From positions 1 to 47,231 of the forward strand of contig JBDRVQ010000012.1 of NCBI GenBank assembly GCA_039801905.1: a DNA stretch of 47,231 bases, given 5' to 3'. The position numbers and the translations under genes are program-made. Numbering within the stretch: the stretch's first letter is position 1; each line of letters starts with the position of its first letter. This document shows, piece after piece, positions 6,128 to 39,809 of the stretch. Below the pieces are notes generated by a model. The model did no database searches. It was not told where the DNA came from and saw only the letters and a list, made by a program, of their open reading frames with translations. The stretch is from a candidate division WOR-3 bacterium (GTDB taxonomy: Bacteria > Hydrothermota > Tepidihabitantia > Tepidihabitantales > JBDRVQ01).

Positions 6128-6843
6128 TGAGGATAATAATTATCGGTGCCGGGGGGAGAATGGGAAGCGCTATCGCCCAAGGGATTCAAGAGACGAAGGA
6201 TATGGAAGTAATTTATGGGGTGGAAAAGGAAGGCCATTTCGCAGTTGGTTCTCCTTTTGGTAAGAATTTTATCGTTGATAAATTAGAAAAGGTAATAAGG
6301 GAAGGGGATGTGGTGGTTGATTTTTCCGAGCGGGAGGCGGTTTTAAGTAATAGGGAGATATTAATTCAAGGTGGTAAGCCTTACCTCTGTGGGGTGACGG
6401 GTTTCCGAGAAGAGGAATTGAAGGATTTGAAGGAGATGGGGAGGTATATCCCTTTTCTCTATTCTCCAAATTTCTCCTTTGGTGCCAATCTGCTCATCAG
6501 GTCGGTCGGGGAAATTGCCCGTTTTTTACCAGAAGATTACGAAATAAAAATTATTGAGACCCACCATAAGATGAAAAAGGATGCTCCGAGTGGGACGGCA
6601 AAGAGACTGGTCACAGAAGTTGAAGAGAAGAAAGGGGAGAAGGTGGAGGTCTTTTCTCTGCGGGCGGGGGAAATCGTTGGTGAACATAGGGTTATCTTTT
6701 TTGGTCCCGGGGAGGTCTTAGAGATTACCCATTCTGCCTTATCCCGGAAAGCATTTGTCCGAGGGGTAATAGAAGGAATAAGATTTATTATTAATCAGGC
6801 AAGGGGATTTTATACCTTTGATGATATTATAAAAAAGGTATGA
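6124..6843 (+). CDS. dapB: 4-hydroxy-tetrahydrodipicolinate reductase
   Basis: DapB reduces the dapA product with NAD(P)H in diaminopimelate and lysine synthesis. The 239-residue protein has the Rossmann loop GAGGRMG at 8-14 and the substrate-binding and catalytic segment ETHHKMKKDAPSGTA near 140-154. The C-terminal half carries the usual HRVIFFGPGE and ARGFYTFDDII features. It overlaps dapA by four bases and the next gene by ATGA, so it is co-translated with both. The following two genes, a restriction-modification pair, are foreign to this pathway. Confidence 0.95.
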   Translation: MMRIIIIGAGGRMGSAIAQGIQETKDMEVIYGVEKEGHFAVGSPFGKNFIVDKLEKVIREGDVVVDFSEREAVLSNREILIQGGKPYLCGVTGFREEELKDLKEMGRYIPFLYSPNFSFGANLLIRSVGEIARFLPEDYEIKIIETHHKMKKDAPSGTAKRLVTEVEEKKGEKVEVFSLRAGEIVGEHRVIFFGPGEVLEITHSALSRKAFVRGVIEGIRFIINQARGFYTFDDIIKKV

Positions 6844-7550
6844 ACCAAGAATTGGCACAGGTGATAAAGATGTATACAACTGGAACTCACAAGGAGTTGA
6901 GCAGTTACCTAATTGGGAAATCAAAGGATACCCTCATTGCTATCCTGGTTGATTTATTAACGATGTATATCAATGATAAAAACTCCTCAACAATACGAGA
7001 ATTCATAAACGTGACTTTAGCCGGTTATCAACATAAAGAAGGGAAAATTGGTTATAATGGTTTCAAACAAGATACATTTGTTCCCGGGAGGACAATAAGA
7101 TGTGAGGCGAAACCGAAAAATGTAAATAGCGAGGAGTTTGAAAAATATAAGAGAGGTGAGAGGAGAACACCCCCTGCAAAATTGAATGGTAGGGGTAATT
7201 TTACTGATTATACTCCGGAACGATTAGAGAAGGATAAAAGGGAGAAAGATTTGAATATGTTAGTAAGTGGTTTTGTTGATGGCAAACTCATTTATATTAT
7301 TGAATTTCCTTTTTCCACTCCTGATTTTGTAAGAAATTTAGAGAAGAAATTAAAAAAATGGCAGGAGAAGTTAAAAGGAAGTAAAAGTATAAAAGGTCAG
7401 TTCTTAAGGAGTGCGGATTTTGATTACAAAGATTATATTAATTGTCCAGATTTAAAAGTAGTTTATCTTTTAAGTAAGGATGAATTAGCAAAATATGAAC
7501 CATATATAGCCAAAGGATTTTATGAATTTTTAAGGGAAAAGACAAAATGA
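6840..7550 (+). CDS. putative type II restriction endonuclease
   Basis: I do not recognise the exact family of this 236-residue protein. The argument for a restriction endonuclease is its place immediately upstream of, and in ATGA overlap with, a site-specific DNA methyltransferase. A PD-(D/E)xK-like signature, D78 followed ten residues later by E89-A90-K91 (RCEAKPKN), also fits the nuclease fold. There is no signal peptide or membrane segment, and it is rich in lysine with many charged residues in the C-terminal half. Start and stop both overlap neighbours by four bases. By eye its DNA is somewhat richer in A+T than the flanking biosynthetic genes, consistent with transfer. It could also be an accessory protein of the methyltransferase. 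Recognition sequence unknown. Confidence 0.55.
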   Translation: MNQELAQVIKMYTTGTHKELSSYLIGKSKDTLIAILVDLLTMYINDKNSSTIREFINVTLAGYQHKEGKIGYNGFKQDTFVPGRTIRCEAKPKNVNSEEFEKYKRGERRTPPAKLNGRGNFTDYTPERLEKDKREKDLNMLVSGFVDGKLIYIIEFPFSTPDFVRNLEKKLKKWQEKLKGSKSIKGQFLRSADFDYKDYINCPDLKVVYLLSKDELAKYEPYIAKGFYEFLREKTK

Positions 7551-8431
7551 AATTGAATGAGTATTTAAATAAGATAATTCAAGGGGATGCCTTAACCGTA
7601 TTGAAAAATTTACCGGAGGAGATTGTTGATTTGGGTGTGACATCACCTCCGTATAATAAGGGTGAAAATAAAAAAGGATGGCTGGTGACAAGTGTCAAAT
7701 ATTCGGGTGTTTCGGACCGATTGCCCGAAAAAGTTTACCAAAGTCAACAAATAGATGTCTTGAATGAAATTTATCGGATTACAAAACCTGGTGGTTCTTT
7801 TTTTTATAATCATAAAATCCGTTGGGAAAGGGGTGAGTTGCTTCACCCGATGGATTGGTTGAGGAAGACCAAATGGATAATTAGGCAGGAGATAATATGG
7901 GATCGGATGATTGCCGCAAATATTCGCGGTTGGCGATTCTGGCAAGTAGAGGAAAGGATATATTGGCTTTATAAACCAAAGGGGAAAAAACTGATCGGTG
8001 AGGAATTAAAGCCGAAACATGCCCTTTTAACTTCAATTTGGCGGTTTCCACCAGAGAAGAAAAATCCCCATCCCGCACCTTTTCCTTTGGCTCTCCCAGT
8101 GCGGGTAATTTATTCTATTATGGATGAAAGAAAGGGGGTGGTAATTGACCCTTACTGTGGAAGTGGGACAACGCTGGTGGCGGCAAAGATTTTGGGGCAC
8201 GATTTTATTGGAATTGAAATATCTGAGGAATATGTTAAATCTGCTGAGAAGCGGCTTTTAAATTATAAAAACGAAAGGTGTGAGGCAGAAGAGGAGATTG
8301 CTAAACACATTGTTATCAAAACATTTAAGGAGAGAAAAGAGAAGGGAGAATTTACTGGGAAATACGGGAAGAGGGCAAATCAAGGAATGAATGCGCTCCT
8401 TTTATTTCGGGAGAAGGGTGAGGAAAGATGA
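7547..8431 (+). CDS. site-specific DNA methyltransferase, beta class (likely m4C)
   Basis: This 294-residue enzyme transfers a methyl group from S-adenosylmethionine to DNA. The catalytic motif TSPPYN comes first (about residues 29-34) and the AdoMet-binding motif DPYCGSGTT comes late (about residue 204), the circular order of beta-class amino-methyltransferases. SPPY rather than DPPY favours N4-cytosine, but N6-adenine cannot be excluded. A C-terminal basic tail of about 50 residues follows the core. It overlaps the putative endonuclease upstream and folK downstream by ATGA, so the pair sits neatly inside a biosynthetic operon. The natural role is host protection from the neighbouring nuclease; an orphan regulatory methyltransferase is the alternative. 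Confidence 0.88.
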   Translation: MKLNEYLNKIIQGDALTVLKNLPEEIVDLGVTSPPYNKGENKKGWLVTSVKYSGVSDRLPEKVYQSQQIDVLNEIYRITKPGGSFFYNHKIRWERGELLHPMDWLRKTKWIIRQEIIWDRMIAANIRGWRFWQVEERIYWLYKPKGKKLIGEELKPKHALLTSIWRFPPEKKNPHPAPFPLALPVRVIYSIMDERKGVVIDPYCGSGTTLVAAKILGHDFIGIEISEEYVKSAEKRLLNYKNERCEAEEEIAKHIVIKTFKERKEKGEFTGKYGKRANQGMNALLLFREKGEER

Positions 8432-11550: not shown

Positions 11551-14145
11551 TCAAATGCCCAGCATCTCGGGAAGAAAGCGTGATACCTGTTGAATTTTTC
11601 CCCCGATCTTTTTGGGATAGGAGATGTAAAGCCTTTCGGTCGCCCTGGTGATTGCCACATAACAAAGCCTTCGCTCTTCAGCCAGACTTCTTTTATTTAG
11701 TGTTGTTCCCAGTAAAGGGAAAAGGCCTTCCACCATTCCTACCAGAAAGACGATGGGAAATTCTAAACCCTTAGCGGCATGGACGGTTAAGAGCCGAACC
11801 AAGTCCTTCCCCCAATCAACCAATGCCAGGTCCTCAAGGAGTTGAACCCGTTCTAAAAAGTCTTTCAATTCCTCCCTCTTAAATGCCTTTGCCTCATTTA
11901 CCAACTCCTTCACATTCTCAATCTTTCTTCTTCCCATCTCCTGCTTCTCCCAGGAAGAAAAGAGGGGGGATTGGAAAATGAGGGGGATGAGGATTTCTTC
12001 GGTTTTACTCTCTTCCGCCAATAACCGATTAACCAGAATGAAAAATTCTTTCACTCTCTTTTCGGAACCCTGAAAGAGGAAGCGATTCTCTTTGAGCATT
12101 AAACTCCCTTCGGGGATGCCGGCAAGCCAGGCAAGGACCGGAAGGAGAAGTTTTTTGTCTTGCTGGGTGATTCCATCCAAAAGTTGAATAATTTTTCTGA
12201 TCTCTTCCCGCTCGTAAAACTTTTCATCACCAATCACAGTGTAGGGGATATCCTCATTGATTAACCCTTCTTCGTAAATTCGCGATTGGTAGTTAACACG
12301 GTATAAGACTGCTATTTCGGAATAAGAACGTTTCTCCTTCTTCACAATCTCTGTTATCTTTTTTGTTAGAAATAACACCTCTTCCGCTTCGTTTTCCGCG
12401 GCGAATAGTTCTAAAACCCCGCCCTCTTTCAGAGAGAACATAGAACCTTTTTCCCTTTCGGTGCGAAGCAAATTTTCGCAGATCCGGCAGATCTTCTCCG
12501 GCAGCCGAAAATTGGTGAGGAGGTGATAGGTTTTTATCCCAGGGAAATCGGTTTGGGCTAAAATGATATTCTCCGGTCGGGCATTGCGCCATTCGTAGAT
12601 TGATTGGCTTTCATCTCCTGTCAAGAAAATATAGCCATGGACGGAGGAGAGGAGGGGTAAGAGTTTGTATTGAACTGGTGTCAAATCTTGTAATTCATCT
12701 ACCAGAATCCTCTGGAACTGGCGTGAATATTTTTCTCTAATCTCGGGAAATTTTGTGAGGAGAATATAGGTATAGTAGATGAGGTCGTCAAAGTCGATTA
12801 AATTATTACTCTTTAAGTGAGTCTGGTATTTTTTGTAAACCGCGGCCGTTAGTTTTTGGAATTCATTTTCTGCTTTCCGTTCTAATTCCTCCGGAGCAAT
12901 AGGAATTGACTTAAATTTTTCAATTTCCTTCTTTATGCGGTTAATCTGGTTCTTACCGAGACCGATAAATTTTAAGCGAAGGGATTCAGAAAAAGGGGGG
13001 ACTACGTTAAAATCTTGACCAAAATCTAAAAATTCCGCTTCCGCCTTCAGGAGGGAGAGGCAGAGATTGTGAAAGGTGCAAATATTGATATTTCTCACCT
13101 CTCTCTTCATTAGTTTTTCTAACCTTTCTTTTAAATCTTTTGCTGCCTTGTGGGTAAAGGTTAAGACCAAGATTGATTCGGGTTCAATCCCTTCCTCTTT
13201 TAGAAAGTAGTAAACTTTATAGGTTAAGACGGTTGTCTTGCCGGTTCCCGGGCCGCCAGTTACCAAAATCTTTTTTTCCTTAGAGTTTATTATTTCCCTT
13301 TGTTGGGGGGTGAGATTGATCTCAGATTCTCGGGGGAGGAGGACTAAGGGTTTTATCTCCAGACTTTTACGCAAAAGGAGTTGTGAAAATTCTTTTGCAG
13401 AGCTTGGCCGCTCTTCCCGGTTTTTGCTTAAAGACTTTATAATCGCCTTCTCTATCGTCTCCGGTAGGGAGGGGTTAAAAAATCTTGGCGGGAGGGGATT
13501 TTTTAGAAAAACCAAATTCCGAATCTCTTCCAGATTCTCTCCCAAAAAGGGAGGTCTTTTGGTTACCATTTCGTAAAAAACCGCACCAAGGGAATAAAGG
13601 TCGGATTCTGGATAAAACTCTCCCTTCCAGGCTTCCGGCGGCATATAGATTGGGGTGCCGGCAATGGAGGCGGAGAGGCTCCCTTTCTTTAGGAATTTAC
13701 CGAGTCCAAAATCAGTAATCTTCACTAATCCTTCTTTTGAAACTAAAATATTCTCAGGTTTTAAGTCCCGATGGATTATTCCTTTTTTATGGGCATAAGC
13801 CAAAGCGGAAAGACACTGCTCAATAATATCCAGCGAGCGGGTTAAATCCAATTCCTTTTTTTCCATCAACTCCCTTAAGGAATCCCCTTTCACGTATTCC
13901 GTAATTAAAACCAATTTGCCTTCTAAGTAATCAATATTATAAAAACGGACAATATTTTTATGCTCTAACTGACTTAAAAGTCTTGCTTCTTCTTTTAGGA
14001 TTTGAGTATCTTCTCTGCGCATTCGGGAGATTTTTAAGGCAAAACTCTCTTTTAAGATGGTATCGTAGGCTAAGTAGACATCACCAAATTGACCACCCCC
14101 GAGCCATTTAATAATTCGGTATTTTCCCAAATTCTGAGTAAGCAT
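11551..14145 (-). CDS. Ser/Thr protein kinase fused to UvrD-like SF1 helicase
   Basis: One 864-residue frame joins two enzymes. Residues about 1-260 form a Hanks-type kinase: glycine loop GGGQFGDV, lysine K38 in ALKIS, HRDLKPEN with catalytic D127, D145-F-G, and GTPIYMPPE. From about 278 an SF1A helicase follows: Q motif LTPQQREII, Walker A GGPGTGKTT (297-305), TFTHKAAKDL, motif II VDELQDLTPVQ, GDESQSIYEWR, motif V/VI regions LLTVHAAKGLEFPIVFL and CYVAITRATERLYISYP. The helicase part is about 590 residues, shorter than PcrA/UvrD (about 720), suggesting a reduced 2B subdomain. All catalytic residues look intact on both sides. No membrane segment is seen, so it should be cytoplasmic. The ATG at 14145 is chosen because a TTGACG/TAAAAT promoter ends five bases before it; the in-frame TTG at 14178 lies in the -35 box. 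The function of the fusion is unknown. Confidence 0.9.
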   Translation of the reverse strand: MLTQNLGKYRIIKWLGGGQFGDVYLAYDTILKESFALKISRMRREDTQILKEEARLLSQLEHKNIVRFYNIDYLEGKLVLITEYVKGDSLRELMEKKELDLTRSLDIIEQCLSALAYAHKKGIIHRDLKPENILVSKEGLVKITDFGLGKFLKKGSLSASIAGTPIYMPPEAWKGEFYPESDLYSLGAVFYEMVTKRPPFLGENLEEIRNLVFLKNPLPPRFFNPSLPETIEKAIIKSLSKNREERPSSAKEFSQLLLRKSLEIKPLVLLPRESEINLTPQQREIINSKEKKILVTGGPGTGKTTVLTYKVYYFLKEEGIEPESILVLTFTHKAAKDLKERLEKLMKREVRNINICTFHNLCLSLLKAEAEFLDFGQDFNVVPPFSESLRLKFIGLGKNQINRIKKEIEKFKSIPIAPEELERKAENEFQKLTAAVYKKYQTHLKSNNLIDFDDLIYYTYILLTKFPEIREKYSRQFQRILVDELQDLTPVQYKLLPLLSSVHGYIFLTGDESQSIYEWRNARPENIILAQTDFPGIKTYHLLTNFRLPEKICRICENLLRTEREKGSMFSLKEGGVLELFAAENEAEEVLFLTKKITEIVKKEKRSYSEIAVLYRVNYQSRIYEEGLINEDIPYTVIGDEKFYEREEIRKIIQLLDGITQQDKKLLLPVLAWLAGIPEGSLMLKENRFLFQGSEKRVKEFFILVNRLLAEESKTEEILIPLIFQSPLFSSWEKQEMGRRKIENVKELVNEAKAFKREELKDFLERVQLLEDLALVDWGKDLVRLLTVHAAKGLEFPIVFLVGMVEGLFPLLGTTLNKRSLAEERRLCYVAITRATERLYISYPKKIGGKIQQVSRFLPEMLGI

Positions 14146-14238: not shown

Positions 14239-15636
14239 TTAATTAAATTCTAAAACCTTTATTTTAATTTTTCCCACTGCGTTTAAGACCTTTGCTTGCT
14301 CTTCAATTTCTCCCACCTTTAAGATGATATGGGTGGGATTGGCAGGAAATTCGCCGAAGGTCGGGTCACAAGCAACCCATCGGTCAAGATAGATCAAATT
14401 CCAGGCGTGGTAGTAGAAACTACCTTGGAAGTAGACAAGACCAACACAGATTTTTGCTGGGATACCAGCGGCCCGGCATAAGGCGGCAAAGAGGATGGAG
14501 TGCTCATTACAATCCCCTTCTTTACTCTTTAAGACATCAACTGCGGAAGGTAAGGAAGCGGTTGGTACTTTTCTCAGGTTTTCATAAACCCAAAAAAGGA
14601 TTTTTTTCGCCACCTCTTGGGCATCTTCCTTTTCCCCTTTTACCTCTTTTGCTTTATTGATAATATCTCTATCATCAGATTGGATATAAAGGGAAGGTTT
14701 TAGAAATTCCTTTTGTTGATTGATGGGTAAAGGAATAGGTTTTTCTTGAAGGTGCGGATATCTTATCTCTAAGATTAATGGGTCTTCAGAAATGACCTTT
14801 TGCTCAGCAAGATTTAGGTCAAAATCCGAAGGTTTAATACCCGTGATTTGGATTTTTAGATATTCCAAGCCCTGGGCTTTTGGAATTACGGTATCTGCCT
14901 TAATTGAGAAATAGGAGATGATGTCAATTGCCTCTTCTCCTTTTTCCTGAGATAGCGCTTCTTGGGGCGATTCCCTTATTGCCAACATCTGGGGTGGAGT
15001 CTCTTCTTTAATCTCCCGGCCAAGAGTGTCAATCCAATAGAAGGAAGTATTATTTGCCATTACCACTTTCGCTTTGGTGCAGAGATAAGTTGAATCACCG
15101 ATTTTCACTTCTTCCTTTCCTAAAACCGTTACCGTGGCTAAGAGGATTTTATTGAGAATAGGTTCAAAGATATGGAAATTATAATCTTTATTCGGTGTCA
15201 ATTTCTTCTGGTGAACAATCTTACCCAGAGCAAAGGAGGGATAAATTTTATCTTCTAAGGAAATTTTTGTGCGCCGCGGACCTTTTTCGGTAAAGACTTC
15301 TTGGTAAAGTTCATTTTCCCTCACTAAGGCGTTTATCCGCACTTTTTGTTTTGGGGCAATTAGGTCAAAACGCAAGCCTTGAATACTAAAATCCGGATTG
15401 GTGGTGCAGTCGGTGGTGGTCAAAAGTTCTTGGACGCTCCCCGCCATTGCCAAACGCATTTTGGCGCGGTTGTAGAACCGAAAGTTTTTCGGTCCGATTT
15501 GAAATTTTTGGAAGGAATAGCCCACCTTTTTTCCGTTGAGATAAAAACCAAGCCAGGTCTCATCTTCTCTTAGGGTTTGTCCCTTTTGGCAAAAGAAAAA
15601 GAGAAACCAAGTAGAGAAAAGAATTATTCTTTTCAT
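14239..15636 (-). CDS. secreted transglutaminase-fold protein
   Basis: The 465-residue protein starts with a hydrophobic export signal (MKRIILFSTWFLFFFC). C16 might be lipidated, but the residues before it (FFF) are not a standard lipobox. Residues about 20-330 are a beta-rich region I do not recognise. The C-terminal 120 residues are a transglutaminase-like core with an intact papain-type triad: C376 in GDCNEHS, H410 in YYHAWN and D424 in CDPTFG. Such domains act as cysteine proteases, amidases or cross-linkers outside the cytoplasm; the substrate cannot be deduced. It lies about 90 bases upstream of the kinase-helicase gene on the same strand, each with its own leaderless-type promoter. Confidence 0.85.
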   Translation of the reverse strand: MKRIILFSTWFLFFFCQKGQTLREDETWLGFYLNGKKVGYSFQKFQIGPKNFRFYNRAKMRLAMAGSVQELLTTTDCTTNPDFSIQGLRFDLIAPKQKVRINALVRENELYQEVFTEKGPRRTKISLEDKIYPSFALGKIVHQKKLTPNKDYNFHIFEPILNKILLATVTVLGKEEVKIGDSTYLCTKAKVVMANNTSFYWIDTLGREIKEETPPQMLAIRESPQEALSQEKGEEAIDIISYFSIKADTVIPKAQGLEYLKIQITGIKPSDFDLNLAEQKVISEDPLILEIRYPHLQEKPIPLPINQQKEFLKPSLYIQSDDRDIINKAKEVKGEKEDAQEVAKKILFWVYENLRKVPTASLPSAVDVLKSKEGDCNEHSILFAALCRAAGIPAKICVGLVYFQGSFYYHAWNLIYLDRWVACDPTFGEFPANPTHIILKVGEIEEQAKVLNAVGKIKIKVLEFN

Positions 15637-20285: not shown

Positions 20286-21314
20286 ATGATTTATATCATT
20301 CTTTTAATTTTATTAGGCGTAATAATTTTTTTAATTCTCTATCTTCTTTTAAAGAAAGAATCAGGGATAAAGTCAAGCGAATTTCTCCAATTACTGCAGG
20401 AGCAAATTTCGTCTTTACGCCAGGAGATGAGCCAAAACTTTGCTACCTTCCTCAATTCTCTCCAGCAGACCACCGGACAAGTCAATACCCGGTTAGACAA
20501 TGCAGCGGCGGTCATTCGGGATGTGAGTAAGAGTTTAGGGATTTTACAAGAAGGAACCCGGCAGGTTTTGGAGATCGGTAAAGAGATCTCTCGCCTTCAG
20601 GAGATTTTGCGGGCACCAAAAGCACGGGGCGTTTTGGGTGAACTCTTTTTAGAAGAACTATTAACTCAATTATATTTTCCCGCGGATGCCTACCGAATGC
20701 AATATGGGTTTAAGAGTGGGGAGAAATGCGATGCCGTGCTTATTTTGGGTGGGAAACTACTGCCGATTGATGCTAAATTTCCCCTGGAGGGTTTCAAAAG
20801 GATACTGGATACGGAGGAGAAAGATGAGCGAAAAAAACGGAGAAGAGAGTTCTCCCAGCAAGTTAAAAGACATATCGATGATATCGCTCGCAAATATATA
20901 CGACCTGAGGAAGGGACATTTGACTTCGCCTTGATGTATATCCCGGCGGAGAATGTTTATTACGAGATGATAATTAAAGAGGAAGGGGAAGAAAGCCTTT
21001 CTTCCTATGCCTTAAACAAGAAAGTGATTCCTGTTTCTCCTAACAGTTTCTATGCTTATCTCCAGGCGATTCTTTTTGGGTTAAGGGGATTGGCGATTGA
21101 AAAACGGGCGGAAGAGATCCTCTCATCTATTAATAACCTTTCTTTGGAATTCTCTCGCTTTCGGGAAGATTTTGAAACCTTGGGGAAGCATATCGCTAAC
21201 GCCTTTAATAAGTATCAGGAGGTGGATAAGAAAATCTCCCGCTTGGAGGAGAGATTCTCCCAAACTAAAACAATCGGGAGGGAAGAGAAAATTTCTTTAC
21301 CGCCGTCAAATTAG
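20286..21314 (+). CDS. rmuC: DNA recombination protein RmuC
   Basis: RmuC proteins limit inversion and recombination at short inverted repeats and carry a PD-(D/E)xK-like nuclease fold. The 342 residues contain an N-terminal membrane anchor (about 2-24), a coiled coil (about 30-110), then the family core ARGVLGELFLEELL, GEKCDAVLILGGKLLPIDAKFPLEGF and FALMYIPAENVYYEMI, and a C-terminal coiled coil. The D-x-K segment in LPIDAKFP fits the catalytic site. The ATG at 20286 is preferred to an in-frame TTG at 20253. Its 3' end overlaps the convergent activator gene by four bases. Confidence 0.9.
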   Translation: MIYIILLILLGVIIFLILYLLLKKESGIKSSEFLQLLQEQISSLRQEMSQNFATFLNSLQQTTGQVNTRLDNAAAVIRDVSKSLGILQEGTRQVLEIGKEISRLQEILRAPKARGVLGELFLEELLTQLYFPADAYRMQYGFKSGEKCDAVLILGGKLLPIDAKFPLEGFKRILDTEEKDERKKRRREFSQQVKRHIDDIARKYIRPEEGTFDFALMYIPAENVYYEMIIKEEGEESLSSYALNKKVIPVSPNSFYAYLQAILFGLRGLAIEKRAEEILSSINNLSLEFSRFREDFETLGKHIANAFNKYQEVDKKISRLEERFSQTKTIGREEKISLPPSN

Positions 21315-23938
21315 GGGGGTCTTTTTAATCCGTATTTTGCCATTAGACGATAGAGATGGCGGCGACTAATTCCTAACTTTTGAGCGGATTTAGTTATATC
21401 CCACTGATTCGTTTGTAGGGTATTTAAGATAATTTCTCTTTCCGATTCCCCAATCTCTTTTTTCACTTTTGTCTTAATTGCTTTCAATTCTGGCCTTTTG
21501 TCTTCCTGAGGAAGGAATTGTAAATGGGGCGGTAAATCAGAATTGGTAATCACTTCTCCTTGGGCTAAAATTATTGCCCTTTCCAACACATTCTCTAACT
21601 CCCGGATGTTACCGGGCCAGTGGTAACGGAAAAATTTATCCATTACCTCTTCGGTTACCCCTTGGCAAGACTTCTGAAATTCATTGTTGTACTTTTTAAT
21701 AAAGTAATCAACTAAAAGGGGAATGTCTTCCTTCCTTTCCCGAAGAGGGGGGAGGGAGAGGGAGACGACATTTAAGCGGTAGAGGAGGTCTTCGCGAAAT
21801 TTGCCTTCTTTCACATTTTTTTCCAAGTCCTGGTTGGTAGCAGCGATAATTCGGACATCGGTTTCAATCGTTTTTCTTCCTCCGACCTTTTCAAACTTTT
21901 TCTCCTGTAAGACCCTAAGAATCTTAGCCTGGAGGGAAAGGGTCATATCTCCAATTTCGTCTAAGAAAATAGTTCCCCCCGAAGCCAGTTCGAACTTCCC
22001 CTTCTTTTCCGTCACCCCGGTAGCGGTTCCTTTTTCCACGCCAAAGAGTTCGCTTTCCAAAAGGGTTTCCGGGATGGCGGCACAATTGATGGCGACAAAT
22101 GGCTTATCGGGACCAAAGGAGAGATTGTGGATACAACGGGCAATCAGTTCTTTACCGGTGCCGCTTTCTCCTTGAATCAGGATAGAAACTTTGGTGGGCG
22201 CCACTTTTTTAATTATGGCAAAAACTTCGCGCATCTTGGCAGTTTTACCGATGATGCCTTCAAAGGGTATCTCCTTCTCCGTCTCTAATTCAATAGGTTT
22301 GGGAATCGCCTGACTCTTCGCCTTTTCCAGACCGAGGGCAATGATATTGGCTACAGCTTCTTTAATTGTTTCACTAAGGGAAATTGGTGCCGGCGTAGGA
22401 AATTTGAGATAGAGAATACCCAGTTTTTCTCGCCCCGAGGAGAGGGGGATGGCGACTGCCTCTGCTTCCTCGATCGTTCCCAAGGTGAGGTGGTGGCTAT
22501 CAATTCGGATGGCACAGCCTTCCAAGAGAAGAATCTCTTTGAGAAGACTGAGGCATTTCCGGCAAAAATCGGTTAAAGGTGCGGGGTTAGCGCAAATGGT
22601 GGAGAGACTGCGGAGGAGAGCGACGCCTTTATTTTCCTCGCGTTCTAAGCGATAGAGATATTTTTCTAACTCTTCTCCCTCTTGGAATATCTCCAAGTTC
22701 TTAAAAATCGTTTTTGCTTCATTAAGATAGGGGAGACCGATATTTTTGGCGTAGTTCTCCACTAGAAATTTGCCGTATTCTAAATAGGCCTTTCCCAATT
22801 CGTATCGGATTCCTAAATTTCTAAATATCTCACAAGATTCCTGAAAATACTTTTTAGCGGTCTCTTTTTCTCCTAAAGCCCAATAGAGATTGCCCAGTGC
22901 CTTCCGCACATTCCCCTCTTCTTTTTTTATTCCGGTTTCTAGGGCTAAGGAGAGGGCTTTGGTTAGAAACTCCTGTGCCTCTTTTATCTCCTGGGAACGG
23001 AGTAGTAGTTCTCCCATTCGCCGATAAGTCTTCGCCAATTCATCCTTTTGGTTAATTTTCGTACAGATTTCCATTGCTTCCACATAGAGATTCATCGCCC
23101 GAAGGAAGTTGCCCATAAGAAAATTTGCCTCCCCTAAATTCCCTAATGCTTCCGCCTTTCGGGGTAGGGAACCAATCTTTTCGGAATATGAGATGGCAGT
23201 TTCAAAAAGGGTAATTGCTTTATCCAACTTTCCCCTTTTTAGATAAATCTCCCCAATATTGTTATAACAGAGGGCAATGCCGGCACAGTCCTTAATTTTT
23301 TCTTTTTCTACCAATGCCCGATAGAAACACTCCGTTGCCGATTCCCACTCTCCCATATCTTCGTAAATTACTCCCATATTTAACCGGGAGACTGCAACCG
23401 CAGCACTTTCGCCCCTTGCTTCTTTGATTGCTAAACTCTTTTTTTGATATTCTAATGCCTCTGCCAACTCCCCCTTGTACCAGTGAACTAAAGACAAATT
23501 ATTGTAAGCAATTGCTAAGCCCAGTTCATCATTTTGGGCTTGGTAAAGAAGGAGGGCTTCCTTGTGGCAGGTAAGTGCCTTTTCAAAATCGCCATTGGCT
23601 TGATGGATAAGACCGAGAATTTGGTAGGCGGTGGCTTTGATTGATTTATTATTTTCCATTTCCCCAACTTTTAATGCTTTTTGAGCAAAAGAGAGTGCCT
23701 CTCCCATATTACCTTCTATCCGGAGGATATTGGCATAAAAGTTTAATGCCTCCCCAAACGATTTTCTCTCTTTCCCCCTTTTAGCTAACGCGATGGCTTG
23801 AGTTGCGAAATACTTTGCCAGTTTTAAGTCGCTCCGGAGGTGTCTCTTGCTGATTTCAATTAAGATTTCTACCTTTTTGGGTAAAGAGGTTTCCTTTTTT
23901 AATTTTTCTTCCAAATTGACCAGGTCACCGTCCTTCAT
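21311..23938 (-). CDS. TPR-GAF-AAA+ transcriptional activator lacking the GAFTGA loop
   Basis: Residues about 10-425 form a long array of tetratricopeptide repeats of the Rap/LuxR-associated kind (for example AYNNLSLVHWYKGELAEALEY). About 430-540 looks like a GAF domain. About 558-800 is an NtrC-type AAA+ domain with Walker A GESGTGKE (590-597), Walker B GGTIFLDEIGD and arginine-finger region FREDLLYRLNV. The C-terminus has a Fis-type helix-turn-helix (DITKSAQKLGISRRHLYRL). Activators of sigma-54 contact it with a GAFTGA loop; here that site reads GTATGV (637-642), lacking the phenylalanine. It may work with another sigma factor or act differently. There is no receiver domain, so peptide or protein binding to the TPRs is the likely input. 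Confidence 0.9.
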   Translation of the reverse strand: MKDGDLVNLEEKLKKETSLPKKVEILIEISKRHLRSDLKLAKYFATQAIALAKRGKERKSFGEALNFYANILRIEGNMGEALSFAQKALKVGEMENNKSIKATAYQILGLIHQANGDFEKALTCHKEALLLYQAQNDELGLAIAYNNLSLVHWYKGELAEALEYQKKSLAIKEARGESAAVAVSRLNMGVIYEDMGEWESATECFYRALVEKEKIKDCAGIALCYNNIGEIYLKRGKLDKAITLFETAISYSEKIGSLPRKAEALGNLGEANFLMGNFLRAMNLYVEAMEICTKINQKDELAKTYRRMGELLLRSQEIKEAQEFLTKALSLALETGIKKEEGNVRKALGNLYWALGEKETAKKYFQESCEIFRNLGIRYELGKAYLEYGKFLVENYAKNIGLPYLNEAKTIFKNLEIFQEGEELEKYLYRLEREENKGVALLRSLSTICANPAPLTDFCRKCLSLLKEILLLEGCAIRIDSHHLTLGTIEEAEAVAIPLSSGREKLGILYLKFPTPAPISLSETIKEAVANIIALGLEKAKSQAIPKPIELETEKEIPFEGIIGKTAKMREVFAIIKKVAPTKVSILIQGESGTGKELIARCIHNLSFGPDKPFVAINCAAIPETLLESELFGVEKGTATGVTEKKGKFELASGGTIFLDEIGDMTLSLQAKILRVLQEKKFEKVGGRKTIETDVRIIAATNQDLEKNVKEGKFREDLLYRLNVVSLSLPPLRERKEDIPLLVDYFIKKYNNEFQKSCQGVTEEVMDKFFRYHWPGNIRELENVLERAIILAQGEVITNSDLPPHLQFLPQEDKRPELKAIKTKVKKEIGESEREIILNTLQTNQWDITKSAQKLGISRRHLYRLMAKYGLKRPP

Positions 23939-24099: not shown

Positions 24100-26766
24100 T
24101 TACTTCACAACGATTAACTTTCTTTCTTCCTTAGATTTTAATGTTTCAAAGTGCAAGAGATAGATTCCCGCTGGTAATTTTTGGATCGTGAATTGACCCG
24201 CATCACTTTCCTGGGAAGAGATGAGTTCCCCTAAGATGTTGTAGATTTTCATAATTACTTTTTCTTTTTTGGGAAGTTTATAAGAGACGTTAGTTAAGCC
24301 TTTTGTGGGATTTGGTTTAATATCAAAGGTGGGGTGATTGAATACTTCGCCATTCACTGCTGGTTTAAGAATCTCAGAGGATTTCTTCCCACCGTAGAAC
24401 CAAAACTCATTGGTATTATTGCCGATAATGCAGTAGATGCCCTGGGAAGTTGATGTCAAGGAACGGCCACATTTTATTCCCTTTTGTGTTTGTCCGTTTC
24501 CGACTTCGCCGAGGTATTGCCAGGAGTTTCTCAGAGGAGAGTAGGTCCAGAACTCTTTTGAATTACCGCCTTTCACCGCGTAGAAAGCACCATTCCAATA
24601 TTCTAAGCAACCTCCCTCTTTAACCTTCCTCTTTCTCCGACTATTGGGGGCGTTGAGGGGTAAATCTTGTTTTCTCGTCCAGGAATGGTTTATCAGGTCA
24701 AAGCAATAAAACTCATTAGTTTTACCCCCAGCGCGCAGGAAGTAAATTTTTTTATCACCATCCCAGGCAAGGGCACTTCCCACTTTTGCCTTTCCTGGTA
24801 AAAACGGGGTAATCGCTTCCCAATTCCGGCTGGAAATTTTGTATCTCTTCCATTCGTCGGTTCGGGAGCCGCTTCCCGCATAAATATAATCTTCACCGTC
24901 AATCTCTACAAAGGTCCCAAATCCTCCTTTTACTCCTTTCATAAATCCCGGAGATGGCAGTAATTCCCAACGGTTATGGATTGGATCATAGAGGTAAAAT
25001 TCTTGAGTCCCACTACCCTTAAAGATATAGACTTCGCCTTCCACACCCTTATCGTTGCGGTCAGTATCAAAGATGTAGGCGCCTTTTTTTACTTTCTTAT
25101 TATCTGGGCCAATCGGCACCGAGGGGAGAGAAATCCATGAGTTGCGATTGGCGGAATATTTGAGAAAATCAAGGGTATTATTACCGGGGATCAAGAAGAC
25201 CAGGGAATCCCCGCGTGCCGCAATCCCACCTCCACCTTTAATTGGTTTGGTAGGGTTGGGTGATGCTCTTGGTTCCCAGCCGGAGGGGCTTTCTTCAATT
25301 CTTTCTATCAAGGCTCTGATCAACCAATCGCCGTAGTATAGATTACGTTTCCAAACTCCCTCAAAGTACTCCCAATTTTCTCCGGAAAGAGGCGAATTTC
25401 TATCAACTCCTAATGCCGGGGAATTGGGATAAGTGTCGGTTTGGATGTAGGCAACATAGAATGACCCATCATCAATACGAAGAGGTGGATAAAGGTTGAT
25501 GGTGTTGAAAGTTCCAGCGCTGACAGTTGTGGTGTCAGAATAGTAGAGGATAGTGCCGGGCGAATTATTAGGTCCGTCGTCATCCAAAATCCAAGCTACC
25601 ATTCTTCCTCCAACCGAAAAATAGAATTTTAGTGCTAACAATTGGCAAGGGTAGTAAGGGGGCGTAAATTTATTCGCCCAGCCATTTCCGGGGAAATACC
25701 AAGTGAAACTAAGTTCGGGATCGTTATCGTCGTATCTTAATTCGGCAAATAAGGAACAAACTTGGGTTTCTCTTATCTTCCCGTCATTATTTGGTCGCAT
25801 ATCTGAAGGAAGGAGAGAGCGCACAACGATATGATAGACGCCATCGGTATTTGGTGTCCAGTTTGGTGAGAAATAGACCGGAAGTGTCTCATTCACACCA
25901 ATTGAACCAACCGATTGGGACCAGTTAGCAACCGCTACTCCGGCTTCAGTATAAACTGTGCAAGCAACGGTAACTGTTGGTTCATCAACTGTTCCGCTGT
26001 TCGTAATAATTCCCGAGAGTTGGGCATTACCAGGGTTGGGCAAAAAGAACCCTTGGCTATTACCGACCGATAAAACTTCAATATCGTGAACATCGACCTC
26101 TTCGTATTTAACAATCGCTCGATTGAAGAAATTGTAAGGGGAGAAGTTCCAAGGTCCATTGGAACTAAAACTATAGGCATTTCGTGTGTGATCACCCGGC
26201 TCGTCAGCCAGGGGATGGAGCGTATCGGTTGGATATATTTGCACATACTTATAGCCGACCCAAAATTCTTCCGGCGTAAGGGAAATGGTTTCATTCGGAA
26301 AAATTTCGTAGACGAACCAATTGCTTGTTAATCCTGCTGGTAAACTATCTCGGAAATAGTCAATGAATAATCTCTCTCCTGGATAATGCTTCCAATCAAT
26401 AAGGGTGTCTCTGCAGATGAGAAGGGAGCATCCCGCGACTACTGGATTAGAGGGATTGCTTGATAATCCTCTTCTTTTAGCAAAAATCAGGGCAAGAAGG
26501 GTGCAGGGTTGGGCAGGAGAAAGGCGCGAGAGGAAAAAGATATTTGGTGGACCAAGATATCGCTCCGGTGTGCCGTCATCGTTTTTTAAAGTATCAATGG
26601 GCCATCCCTTCTCTGATGCTTGGTAATTGGTGCTCTGAAATACCATAGGGACTGAGAGAATGTTTGAATTTGGGAAGAAGTATGAGGAAAGAGGTTGCAC
26701 GAGAGGAATTTCACCTCGGGCGAAAAATATAAGGAAAGGAAGAAATAAAAGTTTTTTTCTATTCAT
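24100..26766 (-). CDS. secreted kelch-like six-bladed propeller protein, T9SS sorting domain
   Basis: The 888-residue protein has a signal peptide (MNRKKLLFLPFLIFFARG), an N-terminal domain of about 200 residues, a CARDB-like immunoglobulin-type domain (VDVHDIEVLSVGNSQGFF and onward), and a second beta domain. Six kelch-type blades follow at about 520-800, with the recurring pattern K(V)KxGG, then YxxKGGxTxEFWxYD and xxW. The C-terminus (PNPTKGLTNVSYKLP, KIYNILGELI, LPAGIYLLHFE, RKLIVVK) is a type A secretion tail used by the type IX system. It is expected on the cell surface or outside. It is a tandem paralogue of the gene at 27383-30100. Its promoter and a GGAGAGGG ribosome site lie upstream. 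Function unknown; ligand or surface binding is plausible. Confidence 0.85.
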   Translation of the reverse strand: MNRKKLLFLPFLIFFARGEIPLVQPLSSYFFPNSNILSVPMVFQSTNYQASEKGWPIDTLKNDDGTPERYLGPPNIFFLSRLSPAQPCTLLALIFAKRRGLSSNPSNPVVAGCSLLICRDTLIDWKHYPGERLFIDYFRDSLPAGLTSNWFVYEIFPNETISLTPEEFWVGYKYVQIYPTDTLHPLADEPGDHTRNAYSFSSNGPWNFSPYNFFNRAIVKYEEVDVHDIEVLSVGNSQGFFLPNPGNAQLSGIITNSGTVDEPTVTVACTVYTEAGVAVANWSQSVGSIGVNETLPVYFSPNWTPNTDGVYHIVVRSLLPSDMRPNNDGKIRETQVCSLFAELRYDDNDPELSFTWYFPGNGWANKFTPPYYPCQLLALKFYFSVGGRMVAWILDDDGPNNSPGTILYYSDTTTVSAGTFNTINLYPPLRIDDGSFYVAYIQTDTYPNSPALGVDRNSPLSGENWEYFEGVWKRNLYYGDWLIRALIERIEESPSGWEPRASPNPTKPIKGGGGIAARGDSLVFLIPGNNTLDFLKYSANRNSWISLPSVPIGPDNKKVKKGAYIFDTDRNDKGVEGEVYIFKGSGTQEFYLYDPIHNRWELLPSPGFMKGVKGGFGTFVEIDGEDYIYAGSGSRTDEWKRYKISSRNWEAITPFLPGKAKVGSALAWDGDKKIYFLRAGGKTNEFYCFDLINHSWTRKQDLPLNAPNSRRKRKVKEGGCLEYWNGAFYAVKGGNSKEFWTYSPLRNSWQYLGEVGNGQTQKGIKCGRSLTSTSQGIYCIIGNNTNEFWFYGGKKSSEILKPAVNGEVFNHPTFDIKPNPTKGLTNVSYKLPKKEKVIMKIYNILGELISSQESDAGQFTIQKLPAGIYLLHFETLKSKEERKLIVVK

Positions 26767-27382: not shown

Positions 27383-30100
27383 CTACGGCAAGATGACCAT
27401 TTTTCTTTCTACCGTACAGCCCTTTGTTTCCAGACGAATCAGGTAGATACCAGCAGGTAGTTTGTTCAATGTAAACGAGTTTTTCTCACTCTTTGCCGAA
27501 TAGACGAGTTCGCCTAAGGCGTTATAGACTTTCAGGGTTGCTATCTCTTTTTCTGGTAGGTTATAAGAGATAGTAGTTAAACCTTTGGTTGGGTTTGGTT
27601 TAATATCAAGGGTGAAGGTATTGGTTGGCTTGCCGCTGATTGCTGGTTTCAGAATGTCAAAGGATTTGCCCGTGCCGTAGAACCAGAATTCATTAGTATT
27701 ATTACCGATGATACAGTAAATACCTTGGGAAGTGGAGGTTAAGGAGCGACCGCACTTAATACCTTTTTGCGGTTGACCGTTTCCGACTTCACCGAGGTAT
27801 TGCCAGGAGTCGCCATCTGGGAAGTAAGCCCAGAACTGTTTCGTATTGCCACCTTTTACCGCGTAGATTAAACCACCAAAGTATTCAATACAGCCACCTT
27901 CTTTCACCTTCTTTTTCTTAGTTGTCCCGGGCACTTGGAGTGGTAATTCATTCTTTGTGCTCCAAGAGGAGTTCGTCAGGTCAAAGTAGTAGAAATCATT
28001 GGTTTTGCCGCCACCGTGCAGGAAGTAAATCTTTGTGCCACCATCCCAGGCAAGACCGCTTCCGACTTTTGCCTTCTCTACTGGTAGAGGCGGGTTGATT
28101 GCTTCCCAAGTTTTGGTAGAGATTTTGAATCGCTTCCATTCGTTAGTGTTAGAACCGCTTCCGACATAGATGTAGTCTTCACCATCCTTTTCCACGAAGG
28201 TGGCAAAACCGCCCTTCACGCCCTTTGTGAAATCAGGTCCCGGTAAAGAATCCCAGCCTTTGGTTAGTGGGTCGTAGACATAGAATTCCTGTGTTCCACC
28301 ACCCTTTAAGACATAGACCTCACCTTCTACACCTTTATCGTTTCTATCGGAGTCAACGATGTAGGCGCCTTTCTTCACCTTCTTATTCTTTGGACCAACT
28401 GGAACATCCGGGAGTTTTGTCCAGGAGTTAGAGTTGGTTGAGTATTTATGGAAATCAAGGGTATTATTACCGGGGATTAAGAAGATAAGGGAGTCGCCCC
28501 TGGCGGTAATACCGCCACCACCTTTAACCGCTTTGGTTGGGGTTGGAGAAGGTAGTTGTGTCCAGCCACCTGGCGGTGGTCCACCGATTTTTTCCACTAC
28601 CGCTCTAATCATCCAATCACCAGGGGATGGGTCTAATTCCCACGTATCATATTCTGCCAAATAAGTCCATTTCTGACCGGCAAAAGGTCCATCCTCATCA
28701 ACTGCCAGACCAGGACAATTGGGATAGGAATCGGCTTGGATGTAGGCAACATAGAATGAACCACTATTGACGGTATATGGGGTTGGGAGGTTTATTGTGT
28801 TGTAGGTGCCGCGGTTAATAGTCACCGGACCAGAATTATAGATTTCGGTTCCGGGTGAACCATCAGGACCATCGTCATCAAAGACCTTAGCGATGATTCT
28901 ATTGCCACCGGGATTTGGCCAATCAGATGACCAGAGGTAATATTTTAATGCGGTCAGTTTGCAGGGATAATATGGTGGGGTGAACTTATTCGCCCAGCCA
29001 TTATTTGGAAAATACCAAGCCCAGGCATTATCTGCTTCATTGTCATCATATCTCAATTCCGCAGGTGAAGAGCAGACTTGGGCTTCTCTCATTGCCCGGT
29101 CATTTTGTGGTCGGTCATCGCCGGCTAAGAGGGAACGAACAACAATCCGATAGACGCCATCGGTATTTGGTGTCCAGTTTGGTGAGAAATAGACCGGAAG
29201 TGTCTCATTCACACCGATTGGACCAACCGATTGGGACCAGTTAGCAACCGCTACTCCGGCTTCGGTATAAACTGTGCAGGCAACAGTAACTGTTGGCTCA
29301 CTAACTGTTCCGCTATTCGTAATAATTCCCGAGAGTTGGGCATTACCAGGGTTGGGTAAGAAGAACCCTTGGCTATTACCGACCGAGAGGACTTCAATAT
29401 CGTGGACATCAACTTCTTCGTATTTGACAATCGCCCGGTTGAGCCAGTCTAAGGCATAGAAATACCAAGGACCGTTAGAAGTCGGACCATAGGCATTACG
29501 AGTTGCATCCCCTGGGTCATCCGCGAGAGGGAATAAGGTATCGCTTTGATTGGTTGTGAGTCTCACATAGCGATAGCCAACCCAAAAGTCTTCAGCACTG
29601 AAACGGAAGGTATCGTATGGAAAGATGTTATAGATAAACCAAGCCGCATACCAGCCATGAGGTAGACTATCTTTGCCATAGCCGACAATTAATCTCCGAC
29701 CCGGGGTATGTTGACCACTAATCATTGTATCTTTACAGATAACTAAGGAGCAACCAGCAACGATTGGGAAATTGGTATCTCTGGTCTGCCAATTCCTCTG
29801 TTTAGCAAACATCAGAGAGAGAAGGGTGCAAGGGGCAACTGGGGAAAGCCGGGAGGCAAAGAAGAGGCTTGGTGGAGATAAATACCACTCCGGATCGCCA
29901 TCATCGTTTTTCAAGGTATCAATCGGCCAACCTTTAATCGGCTCACCAGGATTGACGACCTTTAGTTCCATCGGAACTACGACTTTTTTCATCTCCAGGT
30001 TAGGAGCGGAAGACGTCGGTTGGTTTAAGGAGATTTTTCCGGTAGCGAAGAGAAGACTGACCATCCCAAGGATGGCTAAGGTTTTGATTAACCTACTCAT
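27383..30100 (-). CDS. secreted kelch-like propeller protein, T9SS sorting domain (paralogue)
   Basis: This 905-residue paralogue of the 24100-26766 product has the same order: signal peptide (MSRLIKTLAILGMVSLLFATG), an N-terminal domain beginning after GWPIDTLKNDDGDPEWYLSPP, CARDB-like domain, second beta domain, proline-glycine linker (GGPPPGGW), six KGGxTxEFW-type blades and a Por-type tail (DIKPNPTKGLTTISYNLP, LKVYNALGELVYSA, RKMVILP). The start at 30100 follows AGGAGG (30113-30108) by seven bases and begins the signal peptide; an upstream in-frame start would add 22 residues with no ribosome site. Two tandem promoters, a structured leader of about 140 bases and a strong terminator suggest high, regulated expression. 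Probably a surface protein of unknown ligand. Confidence 0.87.
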   Translation of the reverse strand: MSRLIKTLAILGMVSLLFATGKISLNQPTSSAPNLEMKKVVVPMELKVVNPGEPIKGWPIDTLKNDDGDPEWYLSPPSLFFASRLSPVAPCTLLSLMFAKQRNWQTRDTNFPIVAGCSLVICKDTMISGQHTPGRRLIVGYGKDSLPHGWYAAWFIYNIFPYDTFRFSAEDFWVGYRYVRLTTNQSDTLFPLADDPGDATRNAYGPTSNGPWYFYALDWLNRAIVKYEEVDVHDIEVLSVGNSQGFFLPNPGNAQLSGIITNSGTVSEPTVTVACTVYTEAGVAVANWSQSVGPIGVNETLPVYFSPNWTPNTDGVYRIVVRSLLAGDDRPQNDRAMREAQVCSSPAELRYDDNEADNAWAWYFPNNGWANKFTPPYYPCKLTALKYYLWSSDWPNPGGNRIIAKVFDDDGPDGSPGTEIYNSGPVTINRGTYNTINLPTPYTVNSGSFYVAYIQADSYPNCPGLAVDEDGPFAGQKWTYLAEYDTWELDPSPGDWMIRAVVEKIGGPPPGGWTQLPSPTPTKAVKGGGGITARGDSLIFLIPGNNTLDFHKYSTNSNSWTKLPDVPVGPKNKKVKKGAYIVDSDRNDKGVEGEVYVLKGGGTQEFYVYDPLTKGWDSLPGPDFTKGVKGGFATFVEKDGEDYIYVGSGSNTNEWKRFKISTKTWEAINPPLPVEKAKVGSGLAWDGGTKIYFLHGGGKTNDFYYFDLTNSSWSTKNELPLQVPGTTKKKKVKEGGCIEYFGGLIYAVKGGNTKQFWAYFPDGDSWQYLGEVGNGQPQKGIKCGRSLTSTSQGIYCIIGNNTNEFWFYGTGKSFDILKPAISGKPTNTFTLDIKPNPTKGLTTISYNLPEKEIATLKVYNALGELVYSAKSEKNSFTLNKLPAGIYLIRLETKGCTVERKMVILP

Positions 30101-30240
30101 TGTATATCCTCCTGTTTTTTGGTATCCGGCACCAAGATACCTTTTCTTACCATTGGTCGGTGCCACCAGGAAGTTTCTCTTTTACCTAATTCGGTCCTTC
30201 CCAAACCGAATTTAGGATTTTTATCCGCCACCAGTCCAAC
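30101..30240 (-). promoter_or_regulatory. structured 5' leader of the second propeller gene
   Basis: The leader has a stem with arms CTAATTCGGT (30186-30195) and ACCGAATTTAG (30205-30215). Nearer the gene lie two arm pairs, GGTATC/GATACC (30121-30126, 30136-30141) and GGCACC/GGTGCC (30128-30133, 30159-30164). One arm of the second pair lies in the loop of the first, so they form either alternatives or a pseudoknot, 8 bases upstream of the ribosome site. No known riboswitch recognised. Confidence 0.4.
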
Positions 30241-38292: not shown

Positions 38293-38309
38293 AAAAAGTG
38301 GAGGGATAT

Positions 38310-39809
38310 ATGAAATACTTAATTTCAGTCGTCTTTTTAGTCTTGCCACTCCTCGCCCAAGATGTGGGAGTGACGAAAATCTTTGCTCCCTCGGGCATAA
38401 TTGAACCCGGCCCAGTAAATTGCCGGGCGCAGATAAAGAATTTCACCTCCCAAGAGGAGAGCCTCTTTGTCTACTTTTCCATTTCTCTTGTTAACGGGGG
38501 AAGGGTTTATTATGAGTCTTCTTTTGTCAAGATTAACGGGAATGCGACCCAGAATGTCTCTTTCCCCTCTTGGAACGCAACCCTGGGTAGTTATCTTCCG
38601 AGATGCTCAACCGCTCTTTTGGGTGATGTCAATCCAATCAATGATACCATAAGCGAAAAGGTTTTGGTCTTAGCAATCACACCGGGTCAGTGGATTTCCC
38701 GGGAGAGTATGCCGGCCGGACCGGACAAAAAAAGGGTGAAGGACGGCGGAGCGATGGTTGACGGCTCAAAAGGGAGGGATAAGTTCATCTACGCGATAAA
38801 GGGAGGAAATACCAGGGAGTTCTATCGTTACGATGCGATTCTTAACCAATGGTTGCCGAGGAGAGAGGTTCCGGTTGACCCATTAAATCCCAAGAATGTG
38901 AAGAATGGTGGTTCTATCTGCAAAGAAGGAGATTATATTTATCTGATAAAGGGAAATAAGACCTTAGAGTTCTGGGCTTATGATATTGGGGGTGATAGTT
39001 GGCTCCGAAAGCGAAGTGTACCTTCCGGACCAGAAGGAAAGATGCTCAAAGGCGGTAGTTTCATCACCAGAGGAAAAATCCTGAATAAGAACTATATCTT
39101 CTTGATTAAAGGTGGCACCAGAGAGTTTTATGCTTATGATATTGCAAACGATACCTGGATTTCGCGGCGGGAGACTCCTTATTTGGAAAGGGAGACAAAG
39201 ATAAAGGATGGCAGTTGTCTCGTTTATGATGGTGAGGGTCATCTCTATCTATTAAAAGGCGGTTACAATGAGTTATTCCTTTATGATTGTGATAATGATA
39301 CTTGGAGTCCAAGAAAGCCGATGCCTCTTTACGGTCGGGAGATGAGGAAAAAGAAGGCGAAGAAGGGAGCAGCGATGGTTTACGAACGGGGTAACGATAT
39401 TATCTATGCCTTAAAAGGCGGTGGGACAAATGAATTCTGGGCTTATTTTGTGGAAGGTGACTCCTGGCACGAATTGGCATCAGTTCCCTTAGGGGAGAGA
39501 GGGAAAAAGGTGAAGGGTGGTGCTGGCCTCTCCTTAACTGCGGGTCAGGTCTTTGCCCTTAAAGGTGGTGGCACTAATGAACTCTGGATGTATACCCAAC
39601 CACAATTTCCTTTCCTCTCAGGAGTTCCTTTGGGAAAAGGGGAAGAAGAGAAATTATCTTCTTTCATCAGGTCGGAAGATTTGCGGCTCGTTGGCAAATC
39701 CCTTCTTTATGATGCTTCTGGACGATTGATTTACCAAAACCGATTGAGAAAAGGTATCTACTTCTTAAAGAGGGGAAAGGATTTTATTAAGGTAGTGGTG
39801 ATAAGATAA
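38310..39809 (+). CDS. secreted kelch-like six-bladed propeller protein
   Basis: The 499-residue protein has a signal peptide (MKYLISVVFLVLPLLAQ), a beta-sandwich domain of about 100 residues (DVGVTKIFAPSGIIEPGP), then six blades from about 130 to 435. Each has a basic K-x-K-x-GG lead, a strand YxxKGGxTxEFWxYD and a W-x4-P close (for example IYALKGGGTNEFWAYF). The C-terminal 60 residues (LYDASGRLIYQNRLRKGIYFLKRG) resemble a shortened sorting tail. It is a smaller relative of the two large propeller proteins at 24100-30100 without their large N-terminal domains. ATG at 38310 is preferred to the GTG at 38298 because the ribosome site overlaps the latter. Confidence 0.82.
   Translation: MKYLISVVFLVLPLLAQDVGVTKIFAPSGIIEPGPVNCRAQIKNFTSQEESLFVYFSISLVNGGRVYYESSFVKINGNATQNVSFPSWNATLGSYLPRCSTALLGDVNPINDTISEKVLVLAITPGQWISRESMPAGPDKKRVKDGGAMVDGSKGRDKFIYAIKGGNTREFYRYDAILNQWLPRREVPVDPLNPKNVKNGGSICKEGDYIYLIKGNKTLEFWAYDIGGDSWLRKRSVPSGPEGKMLKGGSFITRGKILNKNYIFLIKGGTREFYAYDIANDTWISRRETPYLERETKIKDGSCLVYDGEGHLYLLKGGYNELFLYDCDNDTWSPRKPMPLYGREMRKKKAKKGAAMVYERGNDIIYALKGGGTNEFWAYFVEGDSWHELASVPLGERGKKVKGGAGLSLTAGQVFALKGGGTNELWMYTQPQFPFLSGVPLGKGEEEKLSSFIRSEDLRLVGKSLLYDASGRLIYQNRLRKGIYFLKRGKDFIKVVVIR

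Follow-up and report, generated by a model that had tools for sequence, protein, structure and literature searches.

UvrD-family helicases load on single-stranded DNA (ssDNA) or 3'-tailed DNA, and these motors work in excision repair, fork restart and anti-recombination. Another described family of relevance to the locus considered here is ARPP (ARG and Rhodanese-Phosphatase-associated Protein; Iyer et al. 2022, PMC9503650), which the parts of that paper drawn on here describe as unrelated to earlier characterised domains and as carrying invariant Cys and Gln residues. The same parts propose, by analogy with SRAP, covalent or enzymatic action of ARPP on sugar moieties, and action upon the ribose moieties of ADP-ribose; they place ARPP in ARG-centred conflict systems, of which an ADP-ribosylglycohydrolase is the core, and find it adjoining a HIRAN domain, a binder of DNA 3' ends. 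A kinase-UvrD pairing is not among the contexts that these parts of the paper give, and a literature search of open-licence papers returned no description of such a fusion, or of ARPP-1 (PF20208), beyond PMC9503650.

The locus lies in a stretch of 47,231 nucleotides from a candidate division WOR-3 bacterium (contig JBDRVQ010000012.1; the whole stretch is hereafter the window), where a Hanks-type Ser/Thr kinase and a UvrD-type helicase are encoded together, with the following features:

11551..14145, minus strand: kinase-helicase fusion gene, 864 aa (ATG 14145-14143, stop 11553-11551)
13396..14121, minus strand: Hanks-type Ser/Thr kinase domain, residues 9-250 (Pfam Pkinase, E 4e-53)
13315..13395, minus strand: inter-domain linker, residues 251-277 (27 residues between domain edges)
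12541..13314, minus strand: N-terminal half of the UvrD helicase, residues 278-535 (Pfam UvrD-helicase, E 9e-72; aligns to PcrA 1pjr)
11611..12528, minus strand: UvrD_C half, residues 540-845 (Pfam UvrD_C, E 9e-48)
11938..12141, minus strand: variable insert, residues about 669-736, at the site of part of the PcrA 2B subdomain (1pjr alignment)
14239..15636, minus strand: gene for an exported transglutaminase-core protein, upstream of the fusion across a 93-nt gap and outside the module discussed below

Translation of the window gives zero internal stops across the 864 aa, and the Pfam domains on this single uninterrupted ORF bear out the preliminary description of the locus, which had reported a complete Hanks kinase and a UvrD-type helicase in one polypeptide and had correctly placed K38, D127 and DFG145; the linker, there put at about 20 residues, is longer. 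The kinase domain contains the GGGQFGD loop, K38, E53, HRDLKPEN (D127, N132), DFG145 and GTPxYM (T164), and every element expected of a Hanks kinase (Gly-rich loop, VAIK Lys, HRD Asp, DFG Asp and APE-type Glu) is present. Its best matches amongst PDB kinases are StkP and PknB, with which it has the complete catalytic apparatus in common; unlike these, the fusion has no PASTA or PEGA part, the helicase being joined to the kinase instead. The other two kinases of the window's genome bear PASTA and PEGA domains.

In the helicase, the N-terminal half holds the Q motif, Walker A (GPGTGKTT), Ia, Ib, DELQD (II) and GDxxQSIYEWR (III), and the UvrD_C half holds IV, IVa, V (HAAKGLEFP) and VI (EERRLCYVAITRA); the full SF1A set (Q, I, Ia, Ib, II, III, IV, IVa, V and VI) is therefore present with its catalytic residues, and in the order found in PcrA, UvrD and Rep. 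Residues 277-668 align to 11-411 of PcrA (1pjr), making about 390 N-terminal helicase residues that align continuously, and residues 737-860 align to 504-640. However, the 2B-region segment of about 92 residues in PcrA is represented by about 68 in the fusion, the C-terminal tail that PcrA has after about residue 640 is missing, and PcrA, UvrD and Rep all differ from the fusion in the N-terminal kinase that the latter carries. With NCBIfam equivalog scores below the cut-off (pcrA 420 vs 911 bits, uvrD 345 vs 1144, rep 370 vs 951), a reduced 2B region and no C-terminal tail, the fusion was not assigned as an equivalog of any of the three. A structure prediction for the window protein, made from an alignment with two relatives, was unusable (mean pLDDT 36).

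The fusion is found in 63 of 147 genomes of candidate division WOR-3, the phylum of the window, and at full length in 4 of the 297 Acidobacteriota genomes sampled; a pattern scan of genome contigs returned 4 loci. Over their length, twenty-four aligned relatives are 31-44% identical to the window protein, and Pkinase and UvrD domains are both recognised by Pfam in 25/25 aligned members, in all of which E171 (YMPPE) of the kinase is invariant. Across 51 essentially full-length fusion proteins the kinase residues K38, E53, D127, N132, D145 and T164 and the helicase residues K303, D483, E484, Q514, R547, R616 and R834 do not vary, position 304 is Thr in 50 of the proteins and Ser in the remaining one, and the linker measures 27-38 residues throughout. 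Given these invariant catalytic residues and the confined linker length, both activities appear to be kept by selection in a single chain and at short spacing. Both enzymes look active, phosphotransfer and unwinding being predicted from their sequences, and since they are kept together on a short linker of near-constant length, phospho-control coupled to the helicase is plausible within the fusion: an N-terminal kinase so tethered lies where the DNA-bound state of the motor could switch it, or where it could phosphorylate the motor. That the gene should be an assembly join, a frameshift or a chance fusion in a single genome, as might be feared of a draft genome of 58 contigs, has next to no probability, because the same single-ORF fusion recurs in tens of independent genomes, including the single-contig G031, G043, G047, G053 and G055. 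Homologues split into two genes, an outcome that the preliminary description had set against its own reading, were not what we found: in many independent assemblies they stay one ORF. The other such outcome, a fusion already widespread and characterised, applies as to its spread within WOR-3 and not as to characterisation, open-licence literature having yielded no description.

In a sample of 61 genomes, nearly all members of the class outside the window's order carry the fusion, and within that order it occurs in the window's genome and G001 only. A tree of the helicases sets the fused enzymes apart from 15 free UvrDs of WOR-3 (support 0.985 for the free UvrD clade, only 0.60 for the fused clade), and the branching of the fused helicases largely mirrors taxonomy. 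The Acidobacteriota copies branch beside those of the WOR-3 genomes G121 and G122 with support 1.0, so that transfer between the two phyla is possible. As judged from these sequence comparisons, the fusion is an old, conserved gene, joined before the WOR-3 families separated and inherited mostly vertically. In the window's genome it is the sole UvrD/PcrA-type helicase found besides an AddA-like helicase-nuclease, and there it may consequently also cover general PcrA/UvrD duties; many genomes, however, carry both the fusion and a free UvrD of the separate clade, which indicates that it is not simply the housekeeping helicase. A role as a stand-in for LexA was considered and dropped: the LexA DNA-binding domain, undetected in the window's genome, is present in 80 of the 147 genomes, fusion-bearing and fusion-less alike.

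Clustering of the neighbourhoods of 47 fusion loci yielded one recurrent family directly upstream, identified as ARPP-1 (PF20208; 207-245 bits for two members, against a cut-off of 27). The two genes are co-stranded at 35/35 WOR-3 loci where both lie on the same retrieved stretch, with a spacing of -8 to +8 nt at 22 of these; two further pairs, in G044 and G118, are adjacent by coordinates, and ARPP-1 overlaps the start of the fusion by 4 nt in 4/4 Acidobacteriota genomes. G121 and G122 have the reverse order, with the fusion first, yet keep the two genes linked, an arrangement hard to explain by inherited synteny alone. Residues Q85, C107, E109, R112, R131 and Q152 of ARPP-1 are invariant, and invariant Cys and Gln are common to this partner and the ARPP described in the consulted parts of Iyer et al. 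(2022). As HIRAN binds 3' ends and the UvrD family engages 3'-tailed DNA, ARPP is paired with a DNA-end module in both contexts.

The copies associated with the fusion constitute one subtype; retrieved loci were allotted to it from their scores and position in the tree, and a small number of others from adjacency or family membership. Its proteins form a clade, are about 300 residues long and, when the WOR-3 copies are scored with a model made from the fusion-linked ones, reach 226-445, compared with 59-200 for the other, mostly longer, ARPP-1 copies; fusion-linked copies from Acidobacteriota score 223-238. At 30 loci of non-fusion Acidobacteriota ARPP-1 no kinase or helicase neighbour was present within 1.5 kb on each side. 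Amongst the 147 WOR-3 genomes, 60 have both the fusion and the subtype, 3 the fusion only, 3 the subtype only and 81 neither, a per-genome association that is inflated by shared ancestry and for which the count by family, where the two agree (19/19 vs 0/18), and the repeated joint absences at family and genus level are fairer measures. The fusion-only genomes are G077, G108 (98% complete) and G110 (94% complete); the subtype-only genomes, G056, G081 and G107, are all fragmentary assemblies with fusion-bearing genus mates, and the contig of G056 stops where the fusion should start. It is thus well supported that the fusion and one ARPP-1 subtype form a module inherited together, often as a tightly spaced operon.

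In the window's own genome the fusion-type ARPP-1 (PF20208, E 2.5e-76) lies on a different contig from the fusion (G000:C2:37113-37976), for which reason the partner was not visible from the window alone; it is sister to the fusion-linked copy of G001 (support 0.93). A transposase-like ORF with an integrase core (PF00665) stands at the end of the window (46375-47088), and a fragment related to it lies directly downstream of ARPP-1 on the second contig (locus L144, 10208-10525), so that insertion elements may have helped to part the two genes.

The transglutaminase-fold neighbour pointed out in the preliminary description is real (PF01841), but no homologue recurs beside the fusion in relatives, and the promoter that the gene was said to possess is indistinguishable from background, the region having 10 promoter-like matches vs 11.1 +/- 3.0 in shuffled sequence. 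Elsewhere in the window, at 6840-8431 on the plus strand, an ORF of 236 aa with no Pfam, NCBIfam or PDB match overlaps an N6/N4 DNA methyltransferase gene (PF01555) by 4 nt, the two probably being a type II restriction-modification pair that was inserted into a cluster of biosynthetic genes. The protein encoded on the minus strand at 21311-23938 joins a TPR array to a sigma-54 AAA+ activator that has a Fis-type HTH and lacks a receiver domain; it is probably an enhancer-binding protein under TPR regulation. Three exported-looking proteins (24100-26766, 27383-30166 and 38298-39809) have kelch-like repeats in common ('KGG', 'TKEFW/TNEFW'), and two of them end in a similar segment resembling a sorting signal, as read from the translations.

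The best explanation that we can offer, and one put forward tentatively, is that the fusion is half of an old two-component module in which ARPP-1 and the kinase-UvrD protein serve damage-responsive phospho-signalling or repair. The SF1A helicase or translocase part would bind 3'-tailed or damaged ssDNA, at stalled forks or in excision or strand-break intermediates; engagement with DNA or translocation along it would activate or silence the attached kinase, which would phosphorylate itself or the helicase, and/or ARPP-1; and ARPP-1, with its invariant Cys, Gln and Arg set, would act upon the (deoxy)ribose moiety at a DNA lesion or end. The steps beyond the intact enzymes and the ARPP-1 partnership are ones that we infer, gating of the kinase by DNA and the choice of ARPP-1 as its target being read from linkage and fusion only. 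The unlinked position of the two genes in the window's own genome, and the three genomes that have the fusion with no ARPP-1 seen, count against such a module. No PP2C_2 phosphatase (PF13672) was found in the window's genome, which leaves reversibility of the phosphorylation unsupported. Furthermore, the chemistry of ARPP-1 need not concern DNA, since ARPP-1 has other contexts, both in the consulted parts of PMC9503650 and amongst the type B copies encountered here.

Several of these observations can be accommodated without a direct partnership. If the fusion were a diverged housekeeping PcrA/UvrD in which DNA binding leads to autophosphorylation that tunes unwinding, ARPP-1 would merely be a co-regulated repair or metabolic gene; every helicase motif is intact and alignable to PcrA, the window's genome has no further UvrD/PcrA-type helicase apart from the AddA-like protein, the linker is short and near-constant, and in a fair share of lineages the two genes are not linked. 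We nevertheless consider this somewhat unlikely, as the ARPP-1 subtype occurs without the fusion only in the three fragmentary genomes noted above, and as the genomes with an additional free UvrD hold the fusion as a paralogous system. Were ARPP-1 instead to handle a nucleotide second messenger (c-di-AMP, ppGpp or ADP-ribose) in a stress circuit, the kinase-helicase would relay DNA or RNA status to it. Unlinked fusion-type ARPP-1 adjoins cdaA (DAC domain, diadenylate cyclase) in G087 and G089 (L150 8793-10447; L153 9536-11198), hinting at a c-di-AMP connection, and a relA/spoT gene directly follows it in G083 (L157 310-3547), positions that fit nucleotide signalling equally well; the proposed action of ARPP on ADP-ribose, cited above from parts of PMC9503650, is in keeping with this. 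However, these neighbours are confined to a few lineages and may be chance housekeeping genes, and ADP-ribosylglycohydrolase does not co-occur, so that a second-messenger circuit seems improbable.

A defence function was amongst the suggestions of the preliminary description, and would have the kinase-helicase sense invading DNA and trigger a response in which ARPP-1 served as effector or processed ADP-ribose. PADLOC models of GajB, DRT helicases and PD-T4-6 kinases do match the separate domains, and ARPP has been placed in ARG-centred conflict systems (in the parts of PMC9503650 already cited). The similarity to Gabija GajB, the PD-T4-6 kinase and DRT RTasHel is, however, generic to UvrD-like or kinase domains, whereas the fusion has both in one chain, in a housekeeping context and with no GajA or reverse transcriptase recognised nearby; Gabija membership was likewise rejected, no GajA (OLD-type ATPase/nuclease) appearing among the window ORFs near the fusion or the recurrent neighbours examined in relatives. 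The ARPP-1 of the window's genome matches no PADLOC or PHROG model. ARG-centred ARPP systems have an ADP-ribosylglycohydrolase (PF03747), but this occurs in 12 of 147 genomes and is absent from the window's genome and from 60 of 63 fusion genomes, and a link of the module to that enzyme was accordingly rejected. The neighbours are of housekeeping type, with folK-, panB- and panC-like genes in the window and rpsL-rpsG-fusA beside the Acidobacteriota fusions (both read from translations), and inheritance of the fusion tracks taxonomy. Among phage and plasmid records there is none that spans 80% of the fusion protein, and by these searches no fusion was found in phages, plasmids or IMG/VR, which led us to set aside a mobile-element origin. 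The IMG/VR contigs L230 (2657-5302) and L232 (2800-5395), which might be cited in favour of defence, each have a UvrD-like helicase gene with a kinase-like gene immediately next to it, as separate genes and possibly as a mobile pair of another lineage. A gene that is inherited mostly vertically, has a partner, stands among housekeeping genes and is missing from the phage and plasmid records does not look like one for phage defence, a reading to which we give little credence; stress-regulated DNA repair, also raised in the preliminary description, is the closer reading.

For the module of ARPP-1 and kinase-UvrD, a more specific and distinctly speculative form, which we regard as rather unlikely, would be a hitherto undescribed DNA-damage module in which the kinase-helicase reads the state of ssDNA or of a lesion and transfers phosphate to ARPP-1, which as a Cys-dependent enzyme would act on the sugars of damaged DNA or nucleotides. 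If true, the resemblance of the module to the eukaryotic damage-sensor kinases would be one of function and not of descent. To our knowledge, direct connections of protein kinases to DNA-processing motor enzymes are rare in bacteria, and here the wiring of kinase to motor is covalent, ancient and conserved. ARPP-1, for its part, is a broadly distributed family for which our search of open-licence papers found no tested function. If the kinase is controlled by the DNA state of the helicase, the fusion would provide a compact system in which DNA lesions could be coupled with the phosphorylation of proteins, and would give access to the function of ARPP-1.
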